Part shown: positions 3,368 to 62,441 of the stretch, one piece after another
How positions within the stretch are numbered: position 1 is the first letter of the stretch
Layout of the letters: each line of letters opens with the position of its first letter
Position numbers and translations under genes: made by a program
Source: Flavobacterium sp. JAD_PAG50586_2
Lineage (GTDB): Bacteria; Bacteroidota; Bacteroidia; Flavobacteriales; Flavobacteriaceae
Direction of reading: 5' to 3'
NCBI GenBank assembly: GCA_023213215.1
Contig: CP096136.1
Location: forward strand, 372,001 to 436,000
DNA length: 64,000 nt
The notes under the pieces: generated by a model
The model's input: only the letters and a program-made list of their open reading frames with translations
Database searches by the model: none
What the model was told of the DNA's origin: nothing

Positions 3368-5861
3368 ATGCCCATAACCAACTTTAATATACAAGGATTA
3401 TCAATAGATCAGGTACAACACGCACGCGAAATTTATGGAGCAAACAAACTCACTTATAAAAAAGAGAATACACTTTTAGTTACTATTAAGCGTTTGCTGA
3501 CCGAGCCTATGATGATTTTGTTGTTAGGTGCGGCTATGATATATTTTTTTAGTGGAAAAATAGGAGACGGCATTTTTATGGGTGCTGCGATTATTTTCCA
3601 GGCATTTATTTCACTTTACCAATATACCAGAAGTAAAAATGCATTAGAAAAACTTAAGGATTTTGCCCAACCCAATTGCAAAGTCATCCGGCAGGGAGAG
3701 ATTACCTCAATTAAAAGTGAAGAGATAGTAATTGGCGACAGTCTCTTAGTAGAAGAAGGAGCACTAATTGCCGCCGATGGACAAATAGTTTATACAAACG
3801 ATTTTTCAGTAAACGAATCGATTCTGACAGGTGAGTCTTTATCCGTTCTAAAAGAGGTTTCTTCTGAAAACAATACTATTTCCAGCGGAACTATGGTATC
3901 AAGCGGAATGGCAATCGCAACTGTTACTGCCATCGGAAACCAAACCAAACTAGGAAAAATAGGTGTCAGTCTGGAAAGTGTTCAGGAAGAAAAAACACCT
4001 CTGGAAGTACAGATTGCCAATTTTGTAAAAAAATGGCTTTCACCGGAGCCTTAGTGTTCCTTATCGTATGGTCATTCAACTATTGGAATTCCAAAGATAT
4101 TTTAAGCAGCTTATTGAAATCGCTTACATTAGCTATGAGTATATTGCCTGAAGAAATACCAGTAGCCTTTACTACTTTCATGGCTTTAGGTGCCTGGCGA
4201 CTGATGAAGTTGGGTATTTTGGTAAAACAGATGAAAACGGTTGAAACCTTAGGAAGTGCTACTGTAATATGTACCGATAAAACCGGAACCCTTACCGAAA
4301 ACAAGATGGATTTAGCCCGGCTTTATACCCTAACCTCCAATAAAATTGTTGATCCTAAAGATAATCTAAATCCTGAAGAAAAGGAATTGGTATTATGGAG
4401 TAGCCTCGCCAGCGAACCCAATCCATTTGACCCTATGGAAATGGCTTTGCATGCTACTTATAAAAAACTATTTCCAAATGCTAATCCAAAGGAGTTCAGA
4501 TTAGTCCATGATTTCCCTTTAGAAGGCAATCCTCCTATGATGACCCATATCTATGAAGATAATAATGGTAAACGATTTATTGCAGCCAAAGGAGCTCCGG
4601 AAGCGTTAATTGAAGTATCAAAATTGACTTCACTGGAAAAAGAACACTTGAACGATACCCTAAAAACTTTATCTTCTAATGGATATCGACTCCTGGGTGT
4701 GGGGTCTTCGTCTTATTCCGGTGTGTCATTACCAAAAAAACAACAGGAGCTGTCATTCACGTTTAAAGGCATTATTGCTTTTTATGACCCTCCAAAAAAG
4801 GATATTCAAAATGTTATAGAATCCTTTTATTCAGCGGGTATATCAGTAAAAATCATCACTGGTGACAGTACAGCAACTACCAGTGCAATAGCTAAGCAAA
4901 TTGGTATCCGGGATAATGAGAAAAACATTACTGGTGAAGCCTTAATGAAAATGGACAATGAATCCTTGAAAACCTGTGTGATGGAAACCACTTTATTTAC
5001 ACGGATGTTTCCGGAAGCCAAATTAAAGATAATCAACGCACTCAAAGAAAACCAACAAGTCGTAGCCATGACAGGTGACGGCGTTAATGATGGACCTGCA
5101 CTAAAAGCCGCTCATATTGGTATTGCTATGGGAAAGAAAGGTAGTGAAATTGCTAAACAGGCTGCATCACTGATTTTATTGGAAGATGACCTTTCTAAAA
5201 TGGTAGATGCCATTGCTATGGGGCGTAAAATATATACCAATTTAAAGAAAGCCATACAGTATATTATTTCGATTCATATCCCAATTATCCTAACGGTTTT
5301 TATTCCATTAGCGCTAGGCTGGAAATTCCCCAATATTTTTTCACCCATTCATATTATATTCCTCGAAATCATTATGGGTCCAACTTGTTCAATAATATAT
5401 GAAAATGAACCCATGGAAAAAAACACTATGCAACTGGCTCCACGCAAACTATCAACCACCTTCTTTAACTGGAGCGAACTTTCTATAAGCATTGTGCAGG
5501 GCTTGACAATCACTGCAGGCACATTGTCTGTATATTTATATGCAATCGAAAGTCGGTTGGATGAGGCAACTACAAGGACAATGGTCTTTACGGTTTTAAT
5601 TTCTGCTAATATCTTTTTAACCTTAATTAACCGATCATTCTATTATTCTATTTGGACCACGCTAAAATATAAAAACGTTCTGGTTCCTACATCATCTTAA
5701 TTACAGTTGCAATAATGGCACTGTTGCTTTTCTTTCCTCCGTTTACACGCTTTTTTGAGTTTAAGCTACTATCCACGGCACAGATCTCATTATCGGCTGG
5801 AGTTGGTTTTATAACCGTTATTTGGTTTGAAATTTTTAAATGGATTAAAAGGAATCGCTGA
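3368..5861 (+). CDS. P-type cation-transporting ATPase (frameshifted twice in this sequence)
   Basis: Three consecutive reading frames make one ~830-residue P2-type ATPase. Frame one (3368-4054) holds the cation-ATPase N-terminal domain, the first membrane segments and the actuator motif TGES (residues 154-157). Frame two (from about 4033) holds the PEEIPV membrane motif, the phosphorylation site DKTGTLT, the nucleotide-binding domain and TGDGVNDGPALK. The last part (about 5683-5861) reads ITVAIMALLLFFPPFTRFF and ends at TGA 5859-5861. The first break is in an A7 run at 4027-4033 that should be A8. The second needs one extra base near 5680. The enzyme would couple ATP hydrolysis to cation export, most like Ca2+/Mn2+-type pumps. 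Sequencing error is more likely than decay, since all motifs are intact. Confidence 0.85.
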
Positions 5862-20744: not shown

Positions 20745-20782
20745 AACAAAGAACTGTGCTTAAAAACAAATAAAAGTTGATT
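20745..20782 (-). mobile_element. remnant of an IS110-type right end
   Basis: AACAAAGAACTGTGCTTAAA and the following AACAAATAAAAGTTGAT are the reverse complement of the right end of the IS at 48365-48407, with a few mismatches. No transposase sequence is attached, so only the end remains. Confidence 0.7.
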
Positions 20783-20860
20783 ACCTTTAAACTAATTATT
20801 ATAAATAGTTACTGAAGTCAGATGGCGGAAGGTTAACAGTCATGGTAATACCCTTGAATC

Positions 20861-35693: not shown

Positions 35694-36122
35694 ATGAAAA
35701 AAAGAATCTCTAGTGTTGCGCTACTTTTGTCAATGACAATTTTATTGAATAGTTGTGGTGTAATATTTGGTGGTAGTAAATACCAAGGAACCATTGTTGC
35801 AAAAGATCACCCCAATGCCGAAATCTTTGTTGGTGGTAAAAAATTAGGAAACGGACAGGCAACTGCTCTTTTTCCTAGAAACAAAGAATTAGTAGTTGAA
35901 TTAAAAGAGCCTGGTTGCGAAACGAAAACTGAGACTTTTGGTAAAGCGTTCCGTACGGGTAATTTTATCCTAAGCATTTTAGGCTTTGGACTAGTTGGAC
36001 TTGGTGTTGATTTAGGTACTGGTGCTTCCTACAAACCAGATCATAAAGGTAATCCATCAATAAAAAAGGAAAGTGATAAGAATTATACTTTTACAGTTCA
36101 GCCCCTGTTTGTAAATAATTGA
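35694..36122 (+). CDS. lipoprotein with PEGA-like domain
   Basis: 142 residues. Lipobox LLNSC (Cys21). The mature part GTIVAKDHPNAEIFVGGKKLGNGQATALFPRNKELVVELKEPGCETKT is PEGA-like: a small beta domain that decorates an envelope lipoprotein. It is followed by a hydrophobic glycine-rich stretch (FILSILGFGLVGLGVDLGTGA) that may insert into the membrane. Single-gene unit between two terminators. Confidence 0.7.
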   Translation: MKKRISSVALLLSMTILLNSCGVIFGGSKYQGTIVAKDHPNAEIFVGGKKLGNGQATALFPRNKELVVELKEPGCETKTETFGKAFRTGNFILSILGFGLVGLGVDLGTGASYKPDHKGNPSIKKESDKNYTFTVQPLFVNN

Positions 36123-41949: not shown

Positions 41950-42195
41950 GGGGTTTAAATGGCAACCTAACTTGTATACAAACGCTACCCTTTATCACAT
42001 ATCCCATCATTTGTTAGTAGATAGGTAAATAAATTGTGTGTTTATTTTTAACTAATATACTACAAATCCCATGACACCCTTTTCCCCTACCCAATAATTA
42101 TCAACAATTAATCCTGTTTCAAAATTTTCATTTTGAAAAAAATGAAACAAAAAGTGTTTCAAAAATTTTATTTTTAAAAATTTGAAACAAGTTGG
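41950..42195 (-). promoter_or_regulatory. array leader L1 (attI-like position)
   Basis: Starts next to AACCTAAC and TTGTATACAA, then shares TAATATACTACAAATCCCAT, CCCTACCCAATAATTATCAAC and two palindromes of type TGTTTCAAAA...TTTTGAAACA with L2, L3 and L4. It is the 5' boundary of array 1 on the minus strand. Its plus-strand neighbour is the T9SS gene at 42459, not a helix-turn-helix gene. Confidence 0.6.
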
Positions 42196-42458
42196 CAGCA
42201 TCATATTCCTGAAAATTGCACTCAAGTTGTCGTTTTTTAATCAAAAACCATTTTTCAGACTGAAATCCACTCCACAAAAATTGCAAATTTCAACGTTTAA
42301 AAACACTCTAACGTTTTCGTAAAAATCGACGAAATGACGCCGATTTGGAATTTAACATACATGAACGTCATAATCTTCCATTTAATCGAAAACCCTTATA
42401 TTTATTAGTATTGACACATAGTGACGCTGTAATTTTGCCACAGAAAAAAAATATTTAT

Positions 42459-47060: not shown

Positions 47061-47178
47061 GTTCTGCGTAACGTACCAGGGCTTGGCATGAGTGGCGGCA
47101 ATTTAAGCAAAATATTATAAGAAATTCTAATGTTCAGAGTATTGCCAAGAAAGATAAACGAGCTATTTCGCGAAACCG
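47061..47178 (-). repeat. attC-like site S4, interrupted by an IS
   Basis: Left arm GCGTAACGTACCAGGGCTTGG..GAGTGGCGGCAATTT; right arm AAGAAAGATAAACGAGCTATTTCGCGAAAC, cut by the IS and resuming at 48404 as TGTTAGCGGCA. GTTAGCGGCA (48405-48414) pairs with TGCCACTAAC at 49017 with one mismatch, so the two halves belong together. Confidence 0.7.
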
Positions 47179-47189
47179 CCTTAAGTTTA

Positions 47190-47389
47190 CAATTATTAAA
47201 TTTATGCATTAATCAGAAAGAACAAAAGAGAGGAGTAAGGTTCTCGATAACCGCAGGAACTTCAGATTCCGTCAACAGTGATAATCCCCTCTCTTTTCTA
47301 CTTTTATTTCGTACAGTTCTGTGAGAGTTGGATCTCGTTTTCAAGGTGATGAAACACAAGTAGATTGTCCTTTCCAAAATCATTTTCTT
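47190..47389 (+). ncRNA. candidate bridge RNA region of IS copy 1
   Basis: About 200 non-coding bases precede the transposase. AAAAGAGAGG (47224-47233) pairs perfectly with CCTCTCTTTT (47288-47297) around an ~54-base loop. The loop holds GATAACCGC (47246-47254), like the left flank GCGAAACCGC, and CAACAG (47273-47278), complementary to the right flank CTGTTG. That is the target-guide layout of IS110 bridge RNAs; the match is my inference. Confidence 0.5.
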
Positions 47390-48364
47390 ATGGATAAAGA
47401 TAAAAAAACATTTGGTATTGACATCAGTAAAGAGACATTTGATGTTATGGATTGTTCAGGTAATTATTATCAGTTTGATAATAATACTAAAGGATTTGTA
47501 AAGTTTTTAAAGCTGCTATGTTCTAAAAGTCATTGCGTTATGGAGGCTACAGGTTATTATCATTATCAACTGGCTTACTTTCTTGTTGATAATAAAATAG
47601 CTGTATCGGTAGAGAATCCATTATCAGTAAAGCGTTTTATCCAAATGAAACTCAGTAGGATAAAAACAGATAAATCAGATGCCAGAATGATTTGTATGTA
47701 CGGTCAGGAGCAAGAGTTAAAGCTATGGGTTGGTTATTCAAAAAATCAGATGGAATGCCTTCAGCAGATACGTTTGTTAGATACTTATACCAAACAGAGT
47801 ACTTCTCTTCAAAATAAGATTCAGGCTGAACAAGTATTGGGTAATCCCAGTAAGCTGGTTGTTGGTTCGCTTAAAAGAAGCTTACGAAACATCGAAAAAG
47901 AGGTAGGCCTAATTGAGACACAATTGTTAGAGATGGTCAAATCTGACTATCAGGATGTACTGACCAAAATAGAAAGCATACCCGGAATTGGCAGAAAGAC
48001 AGCGATGATGCTAATAGTTTTAACAGATGGATTTGAACGTTTTGAAAGCAGTAGTCAGCTTTGTTCATTTTGCGGACTAACACCAGTTATGAGGCAATCG
48101 GGCAGCAGTGTAAAAGGCAGGACCAGGATAAGTAAAATAGGGAATGCCAAACTTAGGAATCTTCTCTTTATGTGCAGTTTTACTGCCTGTAAATGCAATA
48201 AGGCATGCAAGGCAATTTATGATCGGATTACGGGAAAAGGGAAGAGTAAAAAACTAGCATTAATAGCCGTTTGTAATAAACTATTAAGACAGGCTTTTGC
48301 CATCGCAAAATCAGGAGTAGAATACAATAATGAATACAGAAGTGCTATGCCAAAAATTATTTAA
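47390..48364 (+). CDS. IS110-family transposase (copy 1)
   Basis: 324 residues from ATG 47390 (MDKDKKTFGIDISKETFDVM); the longer GTG-started frame covers the presumed bridge RNA and is unlikely. N-terminal DEDD RuvC-like domain: FGIDISKETFDV, HCVMEATGYYHY, KTDKSDARMI (acidic residues D, E, D, D). C-terminal domain: IESIPGIGRKTAMMLIVLTDGFERFESSSQLCSFCGLTP and the catalytic-serine region RQSGSSVKGRTRISKIGNAKLRNLLFMCSFTA. Identical to the copy at 50662, so transposition was recent. Confidence 0.92.
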   Translation: MDKDKKTFGIDISKETFDVMDCSGNYYQFDNNTKGFVKFLKLLCSKSHCVMEATGYYHYQLAYFLVDNKIAVSVENPLSVKRFIQMKLSRIKTDKSDARMICMYGQEQELKLWVGYSKNQMECLQQIRLLDTYTKQSTSLQNKIQAEQVLGNPSKLVVGSLKRSLRNIEKEVGLIETQLLEMVKSDYQDVLTKIESIPGIGRKTAMMLIVLTDGFERFESSSQLCSFCGLTPVMRQSGSSVKGRTRISKIGNAKLRNLLFMCSFTACKCNKACKAIYDRITGKGKSKKLALIAVCNKLLRQAFAIAKSGVEYNNEYRSAMPKII

Positions 48365-48421
48365 AAAATCATCAATTTTTATTTGTTTTTAAGCACAGTT
48401 CTTTGTTAGCGGCAGGTTTTT

Positions 48422-48982
48422 TTATTTGAATTTTGAATTAAGTATCGATTCTGTTATTAACTTTTCGTCAATTATGTTATCAATAACACTTGTTATTTGC
48501 AATTCTTTATTAGCAATTTCTCCAATATACATACATGTTGTATATTTCTTTTTAGGATTTGAAACAATGTTTTTGATTACATAAAATACTTTTCCATCAA
48601 TTTGAATTTTCTCTTTAGTTATATTAATCGGAGTTTCTAAGTCTTTATACTTTTCTTTAACTAATTTAACAAGTTTGTTAATATATTCATCCATTCCATA
48701 AGTCTTTATGTTTTTATTAGACAAATAGCTTGACATAATTATATTAAAATTTGAATCTTTTTCTTTTGCAATTGAAAATAGAATATCTTCTTCAGGATTT
48801 AAGTTCAACCTCTTATCATCTTCAAGGAGTTTTTCTCCTGTTTTCACTATTTTAGAGAAATTGTCGGTTTTATAAAAATAATTTTTGGGTTTTTCATAAG
48901 ACCAAGAAATAGTTTCAATTTTATAAATCTTTTGTGCAAAAATTAAATTTGAAAATAACAATAATAAAAATAATTTGTTCAT
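48422..48982 (-). CDS. secreted hypothetical protein (array 2 cassette)
   Basis: 186 residues, signal peptide MNKLFLLLLFSNLIFAQK. Contains WSYEKPKNYFYKTDNFSKIVKTGEKLLED and a strand/helix body with FYVIKNIVSNPKKKYTTCMYIGEIANKELQITSVID, recalling small secreted proteins of the DUF4845/PsbP-like sort, but I cannot assign it. The cassette runs from the IS right flank (GTTAGCGGCA) to S5. Confidence 0.6.
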   Translation of the reverse strand: MNKLFLLLLFSNLIFAQKIYKIETISWSYEKPKNYFYKTDNFSKIVKTGEKLLEDDKRLNLNPEEDILFSIAKEKDSNFNIIMSSYLSNKNIKTYGMDEYINKLVKLVKEKYKDLETPINITKEKIQIDGKVFYVIKNIVSNPKKKYTTCMYIGEIANKELQITSVIDNIIDEKLITESILNSKFK

Positions 48983-49016
48983 TTTAATTTCGGTTTTCTA
49001 TGTGGTTCGGTAAACT

Positions 49017-49154
49017 TGCCACTAACGTTCCGCCGCTTGGCGTCAGTGGCGACTTTTTCAATAATTTGTTCTAAAGATAATCAAAATTTCAACTTAGTAA
49101 TTTCCGTCTAAGAAAAACTAAACCAGCCATTGCGCCAAACGGCTGTTACCAGCA
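49017..49154 (-). repeat. attC-like recombination site S5
   Basis: TGCCACTAACGTTCCGCCGC TTGGCGTCAGTGGCGAC ... CAGCCATTGCGCCAAACGGC, TGTTACCAGCA. GTTACCAGCA (49145-49154) pairs perfectly with TGCTGGTAAC at 50149-50158. Same subfamily as S9 (54816). Confidence 0.8.
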
Positions 49155-49177
49155 GGCTAAATTCAAACATTGCGCGA

Positions 49178-50129
49178 CTATATTTTAATGATTTTTTTAT
49201 ATTGATTCTTAGCTCCGCAAACATATTGAACAATATAAATACCATCTTGTAAGTCGCCAAGATATATTTGGTTGTTAATAATTTTTCTATTAATGCTTTT
49301 TCCTGTCATATCAAATATCACAATATTATTAAGATTCACATTAATTGAATTTTCTAGAGAAAGTAATTCATGAATTGGATTCACAAAATTTAAACAATTA
49401 GCTTCAGGTTCTCGGCGCATCAGTTTGAACTACCTGAACGAAGTCAACTAAATGATATGAAGTTTTTTGAGCTGAATTCATTACAATTTCTTTCGAGGTT
49501 TCTTCATTAGAATGAAAGTTTCCTAAAGTTAAAAATTCTTCACCACCTTCAGCCTTAAATACACCAGATACTTCAACCCAGTTAATTTTATCCCTAATAA
49601 TCAAAGAAGAATTAATTTGAGGGTTTATAACTAATTGTTCCATGTCGTCATTGCCAATTATAGGCTCATTTGTAAGTACGGCACCAATATTATTCATTGC
49701 ATGTGTTGAACTGTCCGTCAATGAAACTAAAAAAGATACTTTATAAAATTGACCTGCAACTAAAGGGGAAAGCAAATTAGTTTGGATATATTCTCTATAA
49801 GTAGATACAGGATTTAAGAAAACCAATCCAATATATGCATTACCATCATATGGTTCCTGAGTGCCAAAACGATTTGCAGGAATAGAAACATAACTAAAAG
49901 GTGCGCAGGTATTTAAATAGTCAACAGTTCCGTTATGATGAGCAACTCGATACCAACCTGTGGCATAAAAAGTATTGTCAGATGGACATTCGGAATAATT
50001 TTCAAAACTTGGATTATCCACTAGATTTTGGCAATTAGAACTCTCAAAATAAAATAATGAAGCCACTAAAAATAAAAATTTTAATTTTTTAAGAGTAAGT
50101 CTCAAGCGATTTATTTGAGTCGATTCCAT
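49178..50129 (-). CDS. secreted protein with T9SS sorting domain (array 2 cassette; frameshifted)
   Basis: Starts at 50129 (MESTQINRLRLTLKKLKFLFLVASLFYFESSNCQ), then NLVDNPSFENYSECPSD, a domain often N-terminal in Bacteroidota surface proteins, followed by a galactose-binding-like beta-sandwich. The frame changes near 49410: VQTDAP continues in another frame as EPEANCLNFVNPIHELLSLE...VIFDMTGKSINRKIINN...GIYIVQY, a T9SS type A sorting domain. The change is an apparent one-base insertion outside a homopolymer, so real decay is possible. About 316 residues. First cassette after leader L2. Confidence 0.65.
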
Positions 50130-50148
50130 CGTTAGTTCTTCTTTAGCT

Positions 50149-50440
50149 TGCTGGTAACTTGTTTATATGTATTCCTCATACATATCCCCTAATTTGAGAT
50201 CGATATATACAACAACCATAATAAAGCTAATATACTACAAATCCCATCACACCCTTTCCCCTACCCAATAATTATCAACAACTTAATTCTTGTTTCAAAA
50301 TTTTCATTTTAAAAAAATTGAAACAAAAAGTGTTTCAAAAATATCGTTTCAAAAAATTTGAAACAGAATAGCAGCATTTTTGATAAGGATTTTAAAACGA
50401 TGAGATTAAGGAAGGGGAATAAAGACAAAACCAGCTATAG
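50149..50440 (-). promoter_or_regulatory. array leader L2 (attI-like position) fused to a truncated attC-like arm
   Basis: Begins at the TGCTGGTAAC end of array 2, carries AGCTAATATACTACAAATCC, CACACCC, two TGTTTCAAAA / TTTTGAAACA palindromes and GCAGCATTTTTGATAAGG, then ATGAGATTAAGGAAGGGG, like the first codons of the helix-turn-helix gene at 61899, and finally AAAACCAGCTATAGCGC, a half attC. IS copy 2 starts directly after. Confidence 0.65.
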
Positions 50441-50450
50441 CGCAAAACCG

Positions 50451-51675
50451 CCTTAAGTTTACAATTATTAAATTTATGCATTAATCAGAAAGAACAAAAG
50501 AGAGGAGTAAGGTTCTCGATAACCGCAGGAACTTCAGATTCCGTCAACAGTGATAATCCCCTCTCTTTTCTACTTTTATTTCGTACAGTTCTGTGAGAGT
50601 TGGATCTCGTTTTCAAGGTGATGAAACACAAGTAGATTGTCCTTTCCAAAATCATTTTCTTATGGATAAAGATAAAAAAACATTTGGTATTGACATCAGT
50701 AAAGAGACATTTGATGTTATGGATTGTTCAGGTAATTATTATCAGTTTGATAATAATACTAAAGGATTTGTAAAGTTTTTAAAGCTGCTATGTTCTAAAA
50801 GTCATTGCGTTATGGAGGCTACAGGTTATTATCATTATCAACTGGCTTACTTTCTTGTTGATAATAAAATAGCTGTATCGGTAGAGAATCCATTATCAGT
50901 AAAGCGTTTTATCCAAATGAAACTCAGTAGGATAAAAACAGATAAATCAGATGCCAGAATGATTTGTATGTACGGTCAGGAGCAAGAGTTAAAGCTATGG
51001 GTTGGTTATTCAAAAAATCAGATGGAATGCCTTCAGCAGATACGTTTGTTAGATACTTATACCAAACAGAGTACTTCTCTTCAAAATAAGATTCAGGCTG
51101 AACAAGTATTGGGTAATCCCAGTAAGCTGGTTGTTGGTTCGCTTAAAAGAAGCTTACGAAACATCGAAAAAGAGGTAGGCCTAATTGAGACACAATTGTT
51201 AGAGATGGTCAAATCTGACTATCAGGATGTACTGACCAAAATAGAAAGCATACCCGGAATTGGCAGAAAGACAGCGATGATGCTAATAGTTTTAACAGAT
51301 GGATTTGAACGTTTTGAAAGCAGTAGTCAGCTTTGTTCATTTTGCGGACTAACACCAGTTATGAGGCAATCGGGCAGCAGTGTAAAAGGCAGGACCAGGA
51401 TAAGTAAAATAGGGAATGCCAAACTTAGGAATCTTCTCTTTATGTGCAGTTTTACTGCCTGTAAATGCAATAAGGCATGCAAGGCAATTTATGATCGGAT
51501 TACGGGAAAAGGGAAGAGTAAAAAACTAGCATTAATAGCCGTTTGTAATAAACTATTAAGACAGGCTTTTGCCATCGCAAAATCAGGAGTAGAATACAAT
51601 AATGAATACAGAAGTGCTATGCCAAAAATTATTTAAAAAATCATCAATTTTTATTTGTTTTTAAGCACAGTTCTT
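50451..51675 (+). mobile_element. IS110-family insertion sequence, copy 2
   Basis: Identical to 47179-48403, with the candidate bridge RNA at 50462-50661. It sits at the same point of an attC-like arm: left flank GCGCAAAACCG, right flank TGTTGTGTGATC. GTTGTGTG (51677-51684) pairs with CACACAAC at 52169-52176, so the right flank is the start of an intact cassette. Confidence 0.85.
50662..51636 (+). CDS. IS110-family transposase (copy 2)
   Basis: 324 residues, identical to the copy 1 protein: DEDD RuvC-like N-terminal domain (FGIDISKETFDV, VMEATGYYHY, KTDKSDAR) and C-terminal domain with PGIGRKTAMM and RQSGSSVKGRTRISKIGNAK. It would move the element by RNA-guided or site-specific recombination. 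Start chosen at ATG as for copy 1. Confidence 0.92.
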   Translation: MDKDKKTFGIDISKETFDVMDCSGNYYQFDNNTKGFVKFLKLLCSKSHCVMEATGYYHYQLAYFLVDNKIAVSVENPLSVKRFIQMKLSRIKTDKSDARMICMYGQEQELKLWVGYSKNQMECLQQIRLLDTYTKQSTSLQNKIQAEQVLGNPSKLVVGSLKRSLRNIEKEVGLIETQLLEMVKSDYQDVLTKIESIPGIGRKTAMMLIVLTDGFERFESSSQLCSFCGLTPVMRQSGSSVKGRTRISKIGNAKLRNLLFMCSFTACKCNKACKAIYDRITGKGKSKKLALIAVCNKLLRQAFAIAKSGVEYNNEYRSAMPKII

Positions 51676-52153
51676 TGTTGTGTGATCGGTTCTTAAAATT
51701 ATTAATTATCACATTTAATAAATCATTTTCTTTCTCTGAATAAATTTGGATTTCTTTTCCAGATCTAGAATTTCCAATACGCAAAATATATTCATCACTT
51801 TTGATAACAAAATCTTTCACATCGTTAGGTCGAACAACAAACGGTATAGTATAATTTAACTCCTCAAAATTGAATTTTTCATTTTGCGTAAAAACCAAAA
51901 TATTTTCAGAATAAAACAAAGTAGAATTTAAAAAACCTAAAGTTCCGCCACGATTTGAATAAGGAGAATATCTTGTTTCTGAAATTCTAACGTCAATTTT
52001 TTTCAACTCTTCCTTTGTAAGCAACTTTAAAATTTCGCGACCTTTTCTTTTACTGAGTTGAGTTTTTATATATCTAACTATGAATTGCAGAATAAAGAAT
52101 GCAAAACAAAAGATAAGTACTTTTTCGAGTATTAGAGTGTCTGTTTTATTCAT
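51644..52153 (-). CDS. membrane-anchored hypothetical protein (array 3 cassette), tail altered by IS
   Basis: 169 residues from ATG 52153 (MNKTDTLILEKVLIFCFAFFILQFIVRYIKTQ), one N-terminal membrane segment, then a cytosolic strand-rich domain (DVRISETRYSPYSNRGGTLGFLNSTLFYSENILVFTQNEKF) that looks PH-like. The last ~13 residues come from IS110 sequence, so the native end, which would run into the attC-like arm, is lost. Unknown family. Confidence 0.55.
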   Translation of the reverse strand: MNKTDTLILEKVLIFCFAFFILQFIVRYIKTQLSKRKGREILKLLTKEELKKIDVRISETRYSPYSNRGGTLGFLNSTLFYSENILVFTQNEKFNFEELNYTIPFVVRPNDVKDFVIKSDEYILRIGNSRSGKEIQIYSEKENDLLNVIINNFKNRSHNKELCLKTNKN

Positions 52154-52167
52154 AGTTTCTGGAACTG

Positions 52168-52306
52168 TCACACAACGTTCCGCCGCTTCTCGTCAGTTGC
52201 GAAGTTCGGAACTGCGTACTTTCTGCTAAAATAAGATTTTCCAGCGGAAAATCAACAACCGGCTTAAGCAAAATTCGCAATTGCGCCAAAAGGCTGTTGT
52301 GTGCAG
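52168..52306 (-). repeat. attC-like recombination site S6
   Basis: TCACACAACGTTCCGCCGC, TTCTCGTCAGTTGCGAAG ... AATTGCGCCAAAAGGCTGTT, GTGTGCAG. GTTGTGT (52296-52302) pairs with ACACAAC at 53127. Same subfamily as S12 (CTGCGTACTTTCTGCTAAAA in the middle). Confidence 0.8.
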
Positions 52307-55376: not shown

Positions 55377-55613
55377 GTTGGCTAACATGTGTATATATAT
55401 GACAACTATCATTAGCTAATATACTACAAATCCCATCACACCCTTTCCCCCTACCTAATAATTATCAACAACTTAATTCTTGTTTCAAAAATTTCATTTC
55501 AAAAAATTTGAAACAGAATAGCAGCATTTTTGATAAGGATTTTAAAACGATGAGATTAAGGAAAGGGAATAAAGATAAAACCAGTTATTGTCTCAAATAG
55601 CTGTTAGTGTAGT
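55377..55613 (-). promoter_or_regulatory. array leader L3 (attI-like) fused to a truncated attC-like arm
   Basis: GTTGGCTAAC, ATGTGTATATATATGACAAC, TATCATTAGCTAATATACTA, then CACACCC and one TGTTTCAAAAA / TTTTTGAAACA-type palindrome, GCAGCATTTTTGATAAGG and ATGAGATTAAGGAAAGGG (start of a lost helix-turn-helix gene). It passes into GATAAAACCAGTTATTG ... AATAGCTGTTAGTGTAG, a half attC. The first 60 bases are nearly identical to L4. Confidence 0.65.
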
Positions 55614-61677: not shown

Positions 61678-61898
61678 TGCGTATAACATGTGTATATATA
61701 TGACAACTATCATTAGCTAATATACTACAAATCCCATCACACCCTTTCCCCCTACCCAATAATTATCAACAACTTAATTCTTGTTTCAAAATTTTCATTT
61801 TAAAAAAATTGAAACAAAAAGTGTTTCAAAAATTTCATTTCAAAAAATTTGAAACAGAATGGCAGCATTTTTGATAAGGATTTTAAAACGACAAAGCC
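61678..61898 (-). promoter_or_regulatory. array leader L4 (attI-like position) and control region of the divergent helix-turn-helix gene
   Basis: TGCGTATAACATGTGTATAT, ATGACAACTATCATTAGC, TAATATACTACAAATCCCATC, then two palindromes TGTTTCAAAATTTTC...TTGAAACA (about 61790) and TGTTTCAAAAATTTC...TTTGAAACA (about 61822), then GCAGCATTTTTGATAAGG before ATG 61899. The palindromes are probable operators of the adjacent regulator. This is the only copy that still has the intact gene. Confidence 0.65.
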
Positions 61899-62441
61899 AT
61901 GAAATTAAAGAAAGGGAACATTAGGGAGTTATTAGGTGCCAGCCAGGAAGAAATGGCCGTACTATTAAAAATAAGCCGTGCACAGTGGTCTATGTTCGAA
62001 TCAGGGAAAAGGGATTTGCCTTTTGAAGCGAAAAAACAATTTGCGGAAATGCTTACTTATGTACAATCCGCCAAGGAAAAAGCAGCCAAAAAGAAACCTG
62101 AGTCTGCCCAGCCTAATGAAAGGACAGCAAGGAAACTGAAATTATCACTGTTAACCAACTTAAACCGCCAGCGTATTGTGTCCAAAAAGATAAGTGACCT
62201 CCAAAAGAAAATATCGGGAGCTGAAGCGGCGCTTCACTTAGAGAGATATTGCGAAAACAGCAAAAACGAACAGCCTCAATTTGTAGCCGTTGAAATCAAC
62301 AAAATACTTAAACGTGCCAAAGAAGATGTACAAATCGGCGAATCGTTTGAAATGATTGAACTCCAGATAAAATTGAATGTATTGCAATATGAAGAAAAAC
62401 TGCTAAAGGCCGAGTTGGAAAAACTGAACACTAAAAACTGA
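61899..62441 (+). CDS. helix-turn-helix (XRE-like) protein divergent from array 4
   Basis: 180 residues. Residues 1-55 form a Cro/C1-like helix-turn-helix (IRELLGASQEEMAVLLKISRAQWSMFESGKRDLPFEAKKQFAEML). The rest is a long charged coiled-coil-like helix (RKLKLSLLTNLNRQRIVSKKISDLQKKISGAEAAL ... VLQYEEKLLKAELEKLN). It occupies the place where an integron would have its integrase, divergent from the first cassette. Remnants of the same start codon region are in L2 and L3. It probably binds the palindromes in L4. Confidence 0.75.
   Translation: MKLKKGNIRELLGASQEEMAVLLKISRAQWSMFESGKRDLPFEAKKQFAEMLTYVQSAKEKAAKKKPESAQPNERTARKLKLSLLTNLNRQRIVSKKISDLQKKISGAEAALHLERYCENSKNEQPQFVAVEINKILKRAKEDVQIGESFEMIELQIKLNVLQYEEKLLKAELEKLNTKN

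Follow-up and report, generated by a model that had tools for sequence, protein, structure and literature searches.

What does an insertion sequence read when it enters a cassette array? The question is raised by a stretch of 64,000 nucleotides (nt) from Flavobacterium sp. JAD_PAG50586_2 (contig CP096136.1, positions 372,001 to 436,000; hereafter the window), in which a first-pass annotation had described two identical IS110 elements inserted at the same point of attC-like arms. We consider it highly probable that this is a bridge-RNA-guided element of the IS110 type whose predicted guides specify one version of the attC arm, AAACCGC|TGTTR (the bar marks the insertion point), and that its relatives target arms in the same manner with re-worded guides. 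The array sites are treated as attC throughout, with a reservation that is taken up below.

The two copies are indeed the same, with 0 mismatches over 1224 bp and a common orientation (Table 1). The right ends given in the first-pass annotation (48403 and 51675) stand, its starts were one base early (47180 and 50452 are exact), and the left target halves that it quoted, GCGAAAC and GCGCAAAAC, end short, as free arms reading AAACCGCTGTTA and AAACCGCTGTTG place the CGC before CTTAAG within the target. It had also proposed that all copies and empty sites be collected. The genome (3.81 Mb, one contig) holds nine full copies, one of them 1223 bp long, together with two relics, a left end of 75 nt and a right end of 52 nt; eight full copies lie within two cassette arrays, at about 412-433 kb and 1946-1972 kb, and the ninth (locus L001) is at 2.076 Mb. 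All nine sit at AAACCGC|TGTTR, and the left-end relic is likewise preceded by AAACCGC. Unfilled sites are found beside relatives, at L136 (AAACCGCTGTTA at L136:3374 and AAACCGCTGTTG at 4053), L084 (GTTAACCGATGTTG) and L082 (TATACACGGTGTTG), and they indicate that insertion is blunt between N and TGTTR and without duplication.

Table 1. Coordinates of the element copies, their targets and predicted guides, and associated features (window positions unless a locus is named).
Feature	Position	Strand	Comment
IS110 element, copy 1	47180..48403	+	1224 bp, CTTAAG...CAGTTCTT; ends set via empty sites of relatives
IS110 element, copy 2	50452..51675	+	same as copy 1
Transposase gene, copy 1	47390..48364	+	324 amino acids
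Transposase gene, copy 2	50662..51636	+	sequence same as copy 1 gene
Left half of target, copy 1	47173..47179	+	AAACCGC; closes attC body whose AACG arm begins at 47070
Right half of target, copy 1	48404..48408	+	TGTTA, cassette start
Left half of target, copy 2	50445..50451	+	AAACCGC
Right half of target, copy 2	51676..51680	+	TGTTG, cassette start
Predicted bridge RNA, copy 1	47224..47363	+	target loop 5' of donor loop; helices covary among 28 leaders
Predicted bridge RNA, copy 2	50496..50635	+	same sequence as copy 1
Predicted left target guide	47246..47254	+	GATAACCGC; tracks left flank among relatives
Predicted right target guide	47271..47278	+	GTCAACAG; complement of C|TGTTGAC
Predicted left donor guide	47313..47321	+	ACAGTTCTG; equals right end ACAGTTCT; read from table
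Predicted right donor guide	47338..47346	+	TTTTCAAGG; complementary to left end, one mismatch; read from table
Far end of copy 1 cassette	49016..49026	+	complementary to its start; L008, 10/12
Far end of copy 2 cassette	52166..52176	+	complementary to its start; L007, 10/12
Right-end relic	20749..20800	-	52 nt, 87%, then TGTTAAAGG; array looks minus-oriented, cassette-like by eye
Left-end relic L010	L010:1501-1580 (G000:C1:3164627)		first 75 nt kept, through the guide's AACCGC
Tyrosine recombinase	L066:17110-18147 (G000:C1 about 1972.6-1973.6 kb)	-	345 amino acids; PF13495 + PF00589; beside second array, reading towards it

A wider collection of 45 listed loci, searched without demanding TGTT, has TGTT at the right junction in 32. 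No right end was found in six of the other 13, the match is wrong or doubtful in L098 and L103, and five have a different junction: CTTAAG in L088, GGTT in L149, and the three elements L144, L145 and L148. The guide comparison, which does demand a TGTT-like start, adds TGTT for L100 and L103. L144, L145 and L148 are Flavobacterium outgroup IS110 elements with TTCGACC, GCTGAAC and TTCGACT after their right ends, not TGTTR. At L088 the right end is followed by CTTAAGCACC where TGTTAGCACC is expected, perhaps the trace of a tandem or circle junction.

A shared site would say nothing about targeting if one insertion had been multiplied by cassette shuffling or homologous recombination, and cassettes are indeed duplicated in these arrays, for example at L044 and L052. 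At the ten sites that retain a left end, however, exact sharing adjacent to the junction extends over at most 25 nt in the left flanks and at most 10 nt on the cassette side; unlike left flanks and unlike cassettes at ten sites argue for separate insertions, and copying is an extremely improbable source of the pattern.

The transposase has the DEDD domain (PF01548, 65 bits) and the Tnp20 domain (PF02371, 87.6 bits), both above cut-off, and matches NF033542, 'IS110 family RNA-guided transposase', at 205.6 bits (cut-off 140); its homologues in the PDB are IS621 (124 bits) and ISCro4. A non-coding region of 210 nt with conserved helices lies 5' of the gene and only ~40 nt follow the stop codon. 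The longest inverted repeat near the element ends (at most one mismatch) is 9 nt, a length reached by 60 of 100 shuffles, so that no inverted repeats beyond chance are present.

It is the 210-nt leader that is predicted to encode the bridge RNA. In an alignment of 28 leaders, three helices have 97.8% of their cells paired and 14 of 18 pairs have changed on both sides, with 0 of 500 shuffles reaching this level, and shifting the helix partners by 1-3 columns abolishes the covariation signal. Comparison of the left target guide with the left flank in 28 elements including ours gives agreement at 172 of 224 positions, and shuffled flanks give 118.5 (standard deviation 6.9; 0 of 20,000 as high), a test that does not remove shared ancestry. 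Local changes occur in guide and flank together: L135, near our element in the transposase tree, has AACTGC in both, L089 has GAACCGT in both, and in L095 and L096 the guide matches the flank at 8/8. This comparison covers 28 of 33 elements, with L078, L085 and L094 (second copies), L100 (no left flank) and L098 (right end unrecognised) excluded; the sets of 28 differ slightly, as the RNA alignment has L098 in and L082 out, and the tree clade L098 in and L139 out. By eye, the donor guides follow the ends in many relatives, such that TAGTT ends go with TAGTT guides, and CCTAAG ends with CCTAA in L099, L101 and L103.

The alternative that the protein alone reads the target, and that the leader is not a guide RNA, has in its favour that the leader RNA is a prediction from sequence. 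The covarying helices and the guide-flank tracking speak against it, as does the RNA guidance demonstrated for the IS110 and IS1111 families (excerpts of PMC11187229 and PMC11208160), and we regard it as highly improbable.

Several observations nonetheless weigh against RNA guidance as read here. The count of further pair types in the alignment is modest (36 of 500 shuffles), and the stability of single-sequence folds is no better than that of shuffles (z -0.66). Our own guide GATAACCGC matches its flank at six of the last eight positions (all of AACCGC) and not at eight, guide and flank fit poorly in L079 (2/8) and L102 (3/8), and donor guides disagree by eye with the ends in L074, L076, L080, L082, L095, L096, L102 and parts of L103. 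In IS621, recombination takes place beside a CT core dinucleotide that is present in both donor and target (excerpt of PMC11208158), whereas no common dinucleotide can be placed here from the junctions and the empty site: the left junction reads N|CTTAAG, the right CTT|TGTTR and the empty site N|TGTTR. A shared core of CT or TT was tried by hand in several registers, none of which yields both junctions and the empty site; donor and target could have no more than a single base in common at the junction, and that only when position -1 of the target is T.

Does the element read this sequence, or the folded attC in which it lies? The transposase might recognise folded attC as an integron integrase does, with the sequence preference a by-product, and where the flanks can be tested most insertions do lie at attC-like arms, with a constant point of entry. 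The unfilled arms of the genome argue otherwise. It contains no free AAACCGCTGTTR; there are 24 matches to AAACCGCN{0,3}TGTT, and the three gapless ones among them are followed by C, T and C. Of the attC arms in the array regions examined, 31 are free, each at least one base off: AAACGGC (23), AAACTGC (2), AAACCGT (2), and AAAAGGC, AAATAGC, AAGCTGA and AAACGAC (one each). For this count, which covers the arrays right of window position 36000, four of 35 matches were judged by eye not to be attC arms and removed; the pattern misses at least the arms at window 45812 and 39788, neither of which reads AAACCGC. Thus in this one genome arms that differ by a single base at -1 or -3 stay free and the exact version is filled. 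Elsewhere occupancy is not complete: the relative G195 (L136) retains free exact sites. We also considered that GGC might be lost from the standard AAACGGCTGTT arm on insertion, as most free arms read AAACGGC, and dropped this explanation on account of the free AAACCGCTGTTR arms in that relative.

Further evidence comes from insertions away from attC. L078 and L142 lie inside open reading frames (ORFs) of 420 and 189 codons, and it is therefore probably sequence, and not attC structure, that is read. In L073, L094, L095 and L135 the site touches the end, or the region close to an end, of an ORF of at least 100 codons. Locus L001 has a short hairpin, GCGGTTTTGTCAAACCGC, on the left in place of a normal attC body, and its right side is cassette-like by eye with a pairing of 9/12; a search for the empty L001 site in 60 genomes (own included) returned only the locus itself and two short partial matches. 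Copies at sites without attC-like structure, which the first-pass annotation had named as refuting its view, are therefore present, though infrequent (L078 and L142 in ORFs, the short hairpin of L001). Together with the free arms and the tracking of the left guide by the left flank, the two ORF insertions make recognition of folded attC very unlikely.

Under the preferred reading, RNA from the ~210-nt leader would fold into two loops, one for the target and one for the donor. On an AAACCGC|TGTTR arm the left target guide would base-pair through AACCGC with the bottom strand, and the right one through CAACAG with the top strand; the donor guides would recognise both element ends, joined in a circle, and the transposase would exchange strands between circle and target, such that the element enters bluntly, in one orientation and antisense to the cassette genes; an attC split in this way would lock its cassette. 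The ends, target, orientation, blunt junction, guide-flank tracking, RNA helices and cassette context are read from the DNA, and from there we infer RNA expression, the circle, catalysis and the locking of the cassette by attC splitting. When the ends are abutted, the distance from TTTG, TTGG or TTGT of the right end to the TAAGTTTR-like beginning of the left end is 19-20 nt in 26 of 27 elements (no control set), an arrangement similar to the Bacteroidota promoter. It also resembles the junction promoter reported for IS110 and IS1111 circles (excerpt of PMC11187229).

The first-pass annotation had taken the insertions as support for reading the repeats as attC. Since recognition seems to extend over ~12 nt of sequence, they support it only indirectly, and pairing between the two ends of a cassette is the better evidence. 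For both window copies the right flank pairs with the far end of its own cassette, as had been claimed (10/12 each, ending at 49026 and 52176), a score reached by ~3% of swapped controls for these flanks. Among the 38 loci whose right flank exceeds 900 nt, at least 10 of 12 positions pair in 31, compared with 86 of the 1406 swapped pairs. L074 and L137 appear to be a single locus that entered through two collections, and several of the rows represent copies of one element at separate sites. The seven loci below 10/12 (L001, L080, L081, L100, L101, L104 and L142) count against this context. Pairing often extends to 10-11 of 12 positions, which we take to be longer than in classical integron R boxes, and G against A is frequent at one late position. 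In 13 of 32 rows (no control set) the left junction is preceded, at a distance of 118-126 nt, by an AACG...AGT partner arm, and the duplicated cassette units of L044 and L052, which have the body and the ORF to its right in common, break at AAC|G. Many cassette ORFs are on the minus strand, which in canonical orientation would put the element just inside the R'' box and antisense to the cassette gene, if the box is placed by what we assume to be its consensus.

These features argue against the repeats being the joints of some other cassette-like recombination system that the element targets, as does the recombinase beside the second array, which lies just over the cut-off of NF040815, 'site-specific tyrosine recombinase/integron integrase' (222.7, cut-off 220). 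The same protein scores 218.2 on TIGR02249 (cut-off 265), in two pieces with the middle absent, and an excerpt of a Bacteroidetes survey (PMC9024848) gives only In0 and one complete integron (Salinibacter); both favour another system, which we judge unlikely but deserving of appreciable weight. An integrase gene-family search of the genome stayed below cut-off and matched in all 14 control genomes as well, and by itself says little. The sequence AACTTGTTTATATGTAT is present at a cassette end (window 50157-50173) and beside the recombinase (L066:17007-17023), and may be an attI-like site.

Insertion in attC is also the habit of the IS1111-attC elements of proteobacteria (ISKpn4, ISPst6, ISPa25; ISPa21), which likewise combine a DEDD transposase with an RNA guide (excerpt of PMC11616780); the exceptions here are L078, L142 and the unusual left side of L001. 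By the layout criteria of side of the non-coding region and guide order (excerpt of PMC11187229), the present element is of the IS110 type: IS1111 elements have a downstream region and subterminal inverted repeats, whereas here the region is upstream, the bottom-strand guide (47246) lies 5' of the top-strand guide (47271), and no inverted repeats beyond chance are found. The hosts also differ, being Bacteroidota, and guide wording is variable among the relatives. The earlier suggestion of an independent flavobacterial IS110 element with the IS1111-attC habit is thus borne out as to the habit, and the upstream region, the guide order and the missing inverted repeats suggest its independence. 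The habit is not confined to Flavobacterium, as relatives in other Bacteroidota are likewise at cassette boundaries. IS621 has a homologous transposase and, upstream of it, an RNA of two loops that carry left and right guides for target and donor; the corresponding loops were matched here by permutation on the target side and by eye on the donor side. ISEc21 and ISMch6, also of the IS110 type, have an upstream region, no target duplication, and guide and target that have changed together between relatives (excerpt of PMC11187229). The target of ISEc21 is linear and in IS3-family transposase genes, in contrast to the attC arms and the many guide wordings within one clade seen here.

A scan of named genomes gave 62 loci, all but one (L096) in Bacteroidota-titled records, and a search of the genus Flavobacterium gave matches in 40 of 398 genomes, many of them just short stretches. 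In a tree of 31 transposases the 28 attC-clade proteins are split from the three outgroup proteins (100/100). The guide classes AACYG and TAC require three changes each on this tree, at least two of them forced by well-supported branches, showing that guides have been re-worded more than once. L096, a clade member, comes from a Candidatus Lokiarchaeia metagenome-assembled genome, where its 3.1-kb contig is possibly a misbinned Bacteroidota one, and L170 is an Adhaeribacter plasmid IS110 element with an attC-like AACGTTTCGCGGCT shortly downstream.

We lean slightly towards a broader view, in which a Bacteroidota bridge-RNA clade is specialised on integron-like arrays largely missed by surveys, its guides repeatedly re-worded to follow attC arms (in one genome to the point that all exact sites found are occupied), with strand exchange that does without a common core dinucleotide. 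If so, guides could act as probes for hidden cassette arrays. The element represents a further lineage with predicted guide RNAs that targets attC and stands apart from the IS1111 group. The natural series of guides and targets, with single-base differences dividing filled from free attC, would let target discrimination by bridge RNAs of the IS110 family be read from genomes. The element is also a pointer to cassette arrays in Flavobacteriia and in Bacteroidota more widely, for which one large survey (PMC9024848) lists hardly any complete integrons, and it suggests a route to cassette immobility. We found no description of attC-targeting IS110-type elements of Bacteroidota in the open-licence literature searched.

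In the left-end relic L010, AACCGC of the guide is joined directly to a cassette start (TGTTA; the sequence after the joint is TGTTAGCAGTAG), a point in favour of the preferred reading, and the joint coincides exactly with the guide end and the normal insertion point. Aberrant excision with the guide copy as left target half would explain this structure, as would a second insertion there followed by excision. One pattern for such fusions, run over 398 Flavobacterium genomes, matched L010 and, in G285, one sequence that is unrelated by eye. The window also contains a ~150-nt repeat, D2, with TTTCAAA palindromes, at 42076-42224, 50252-50400, 55402-55550 and 61743-61891, and an ORF at 61899, with sub-threshold helix-turn-helix matches, follows one of the D2 copies.

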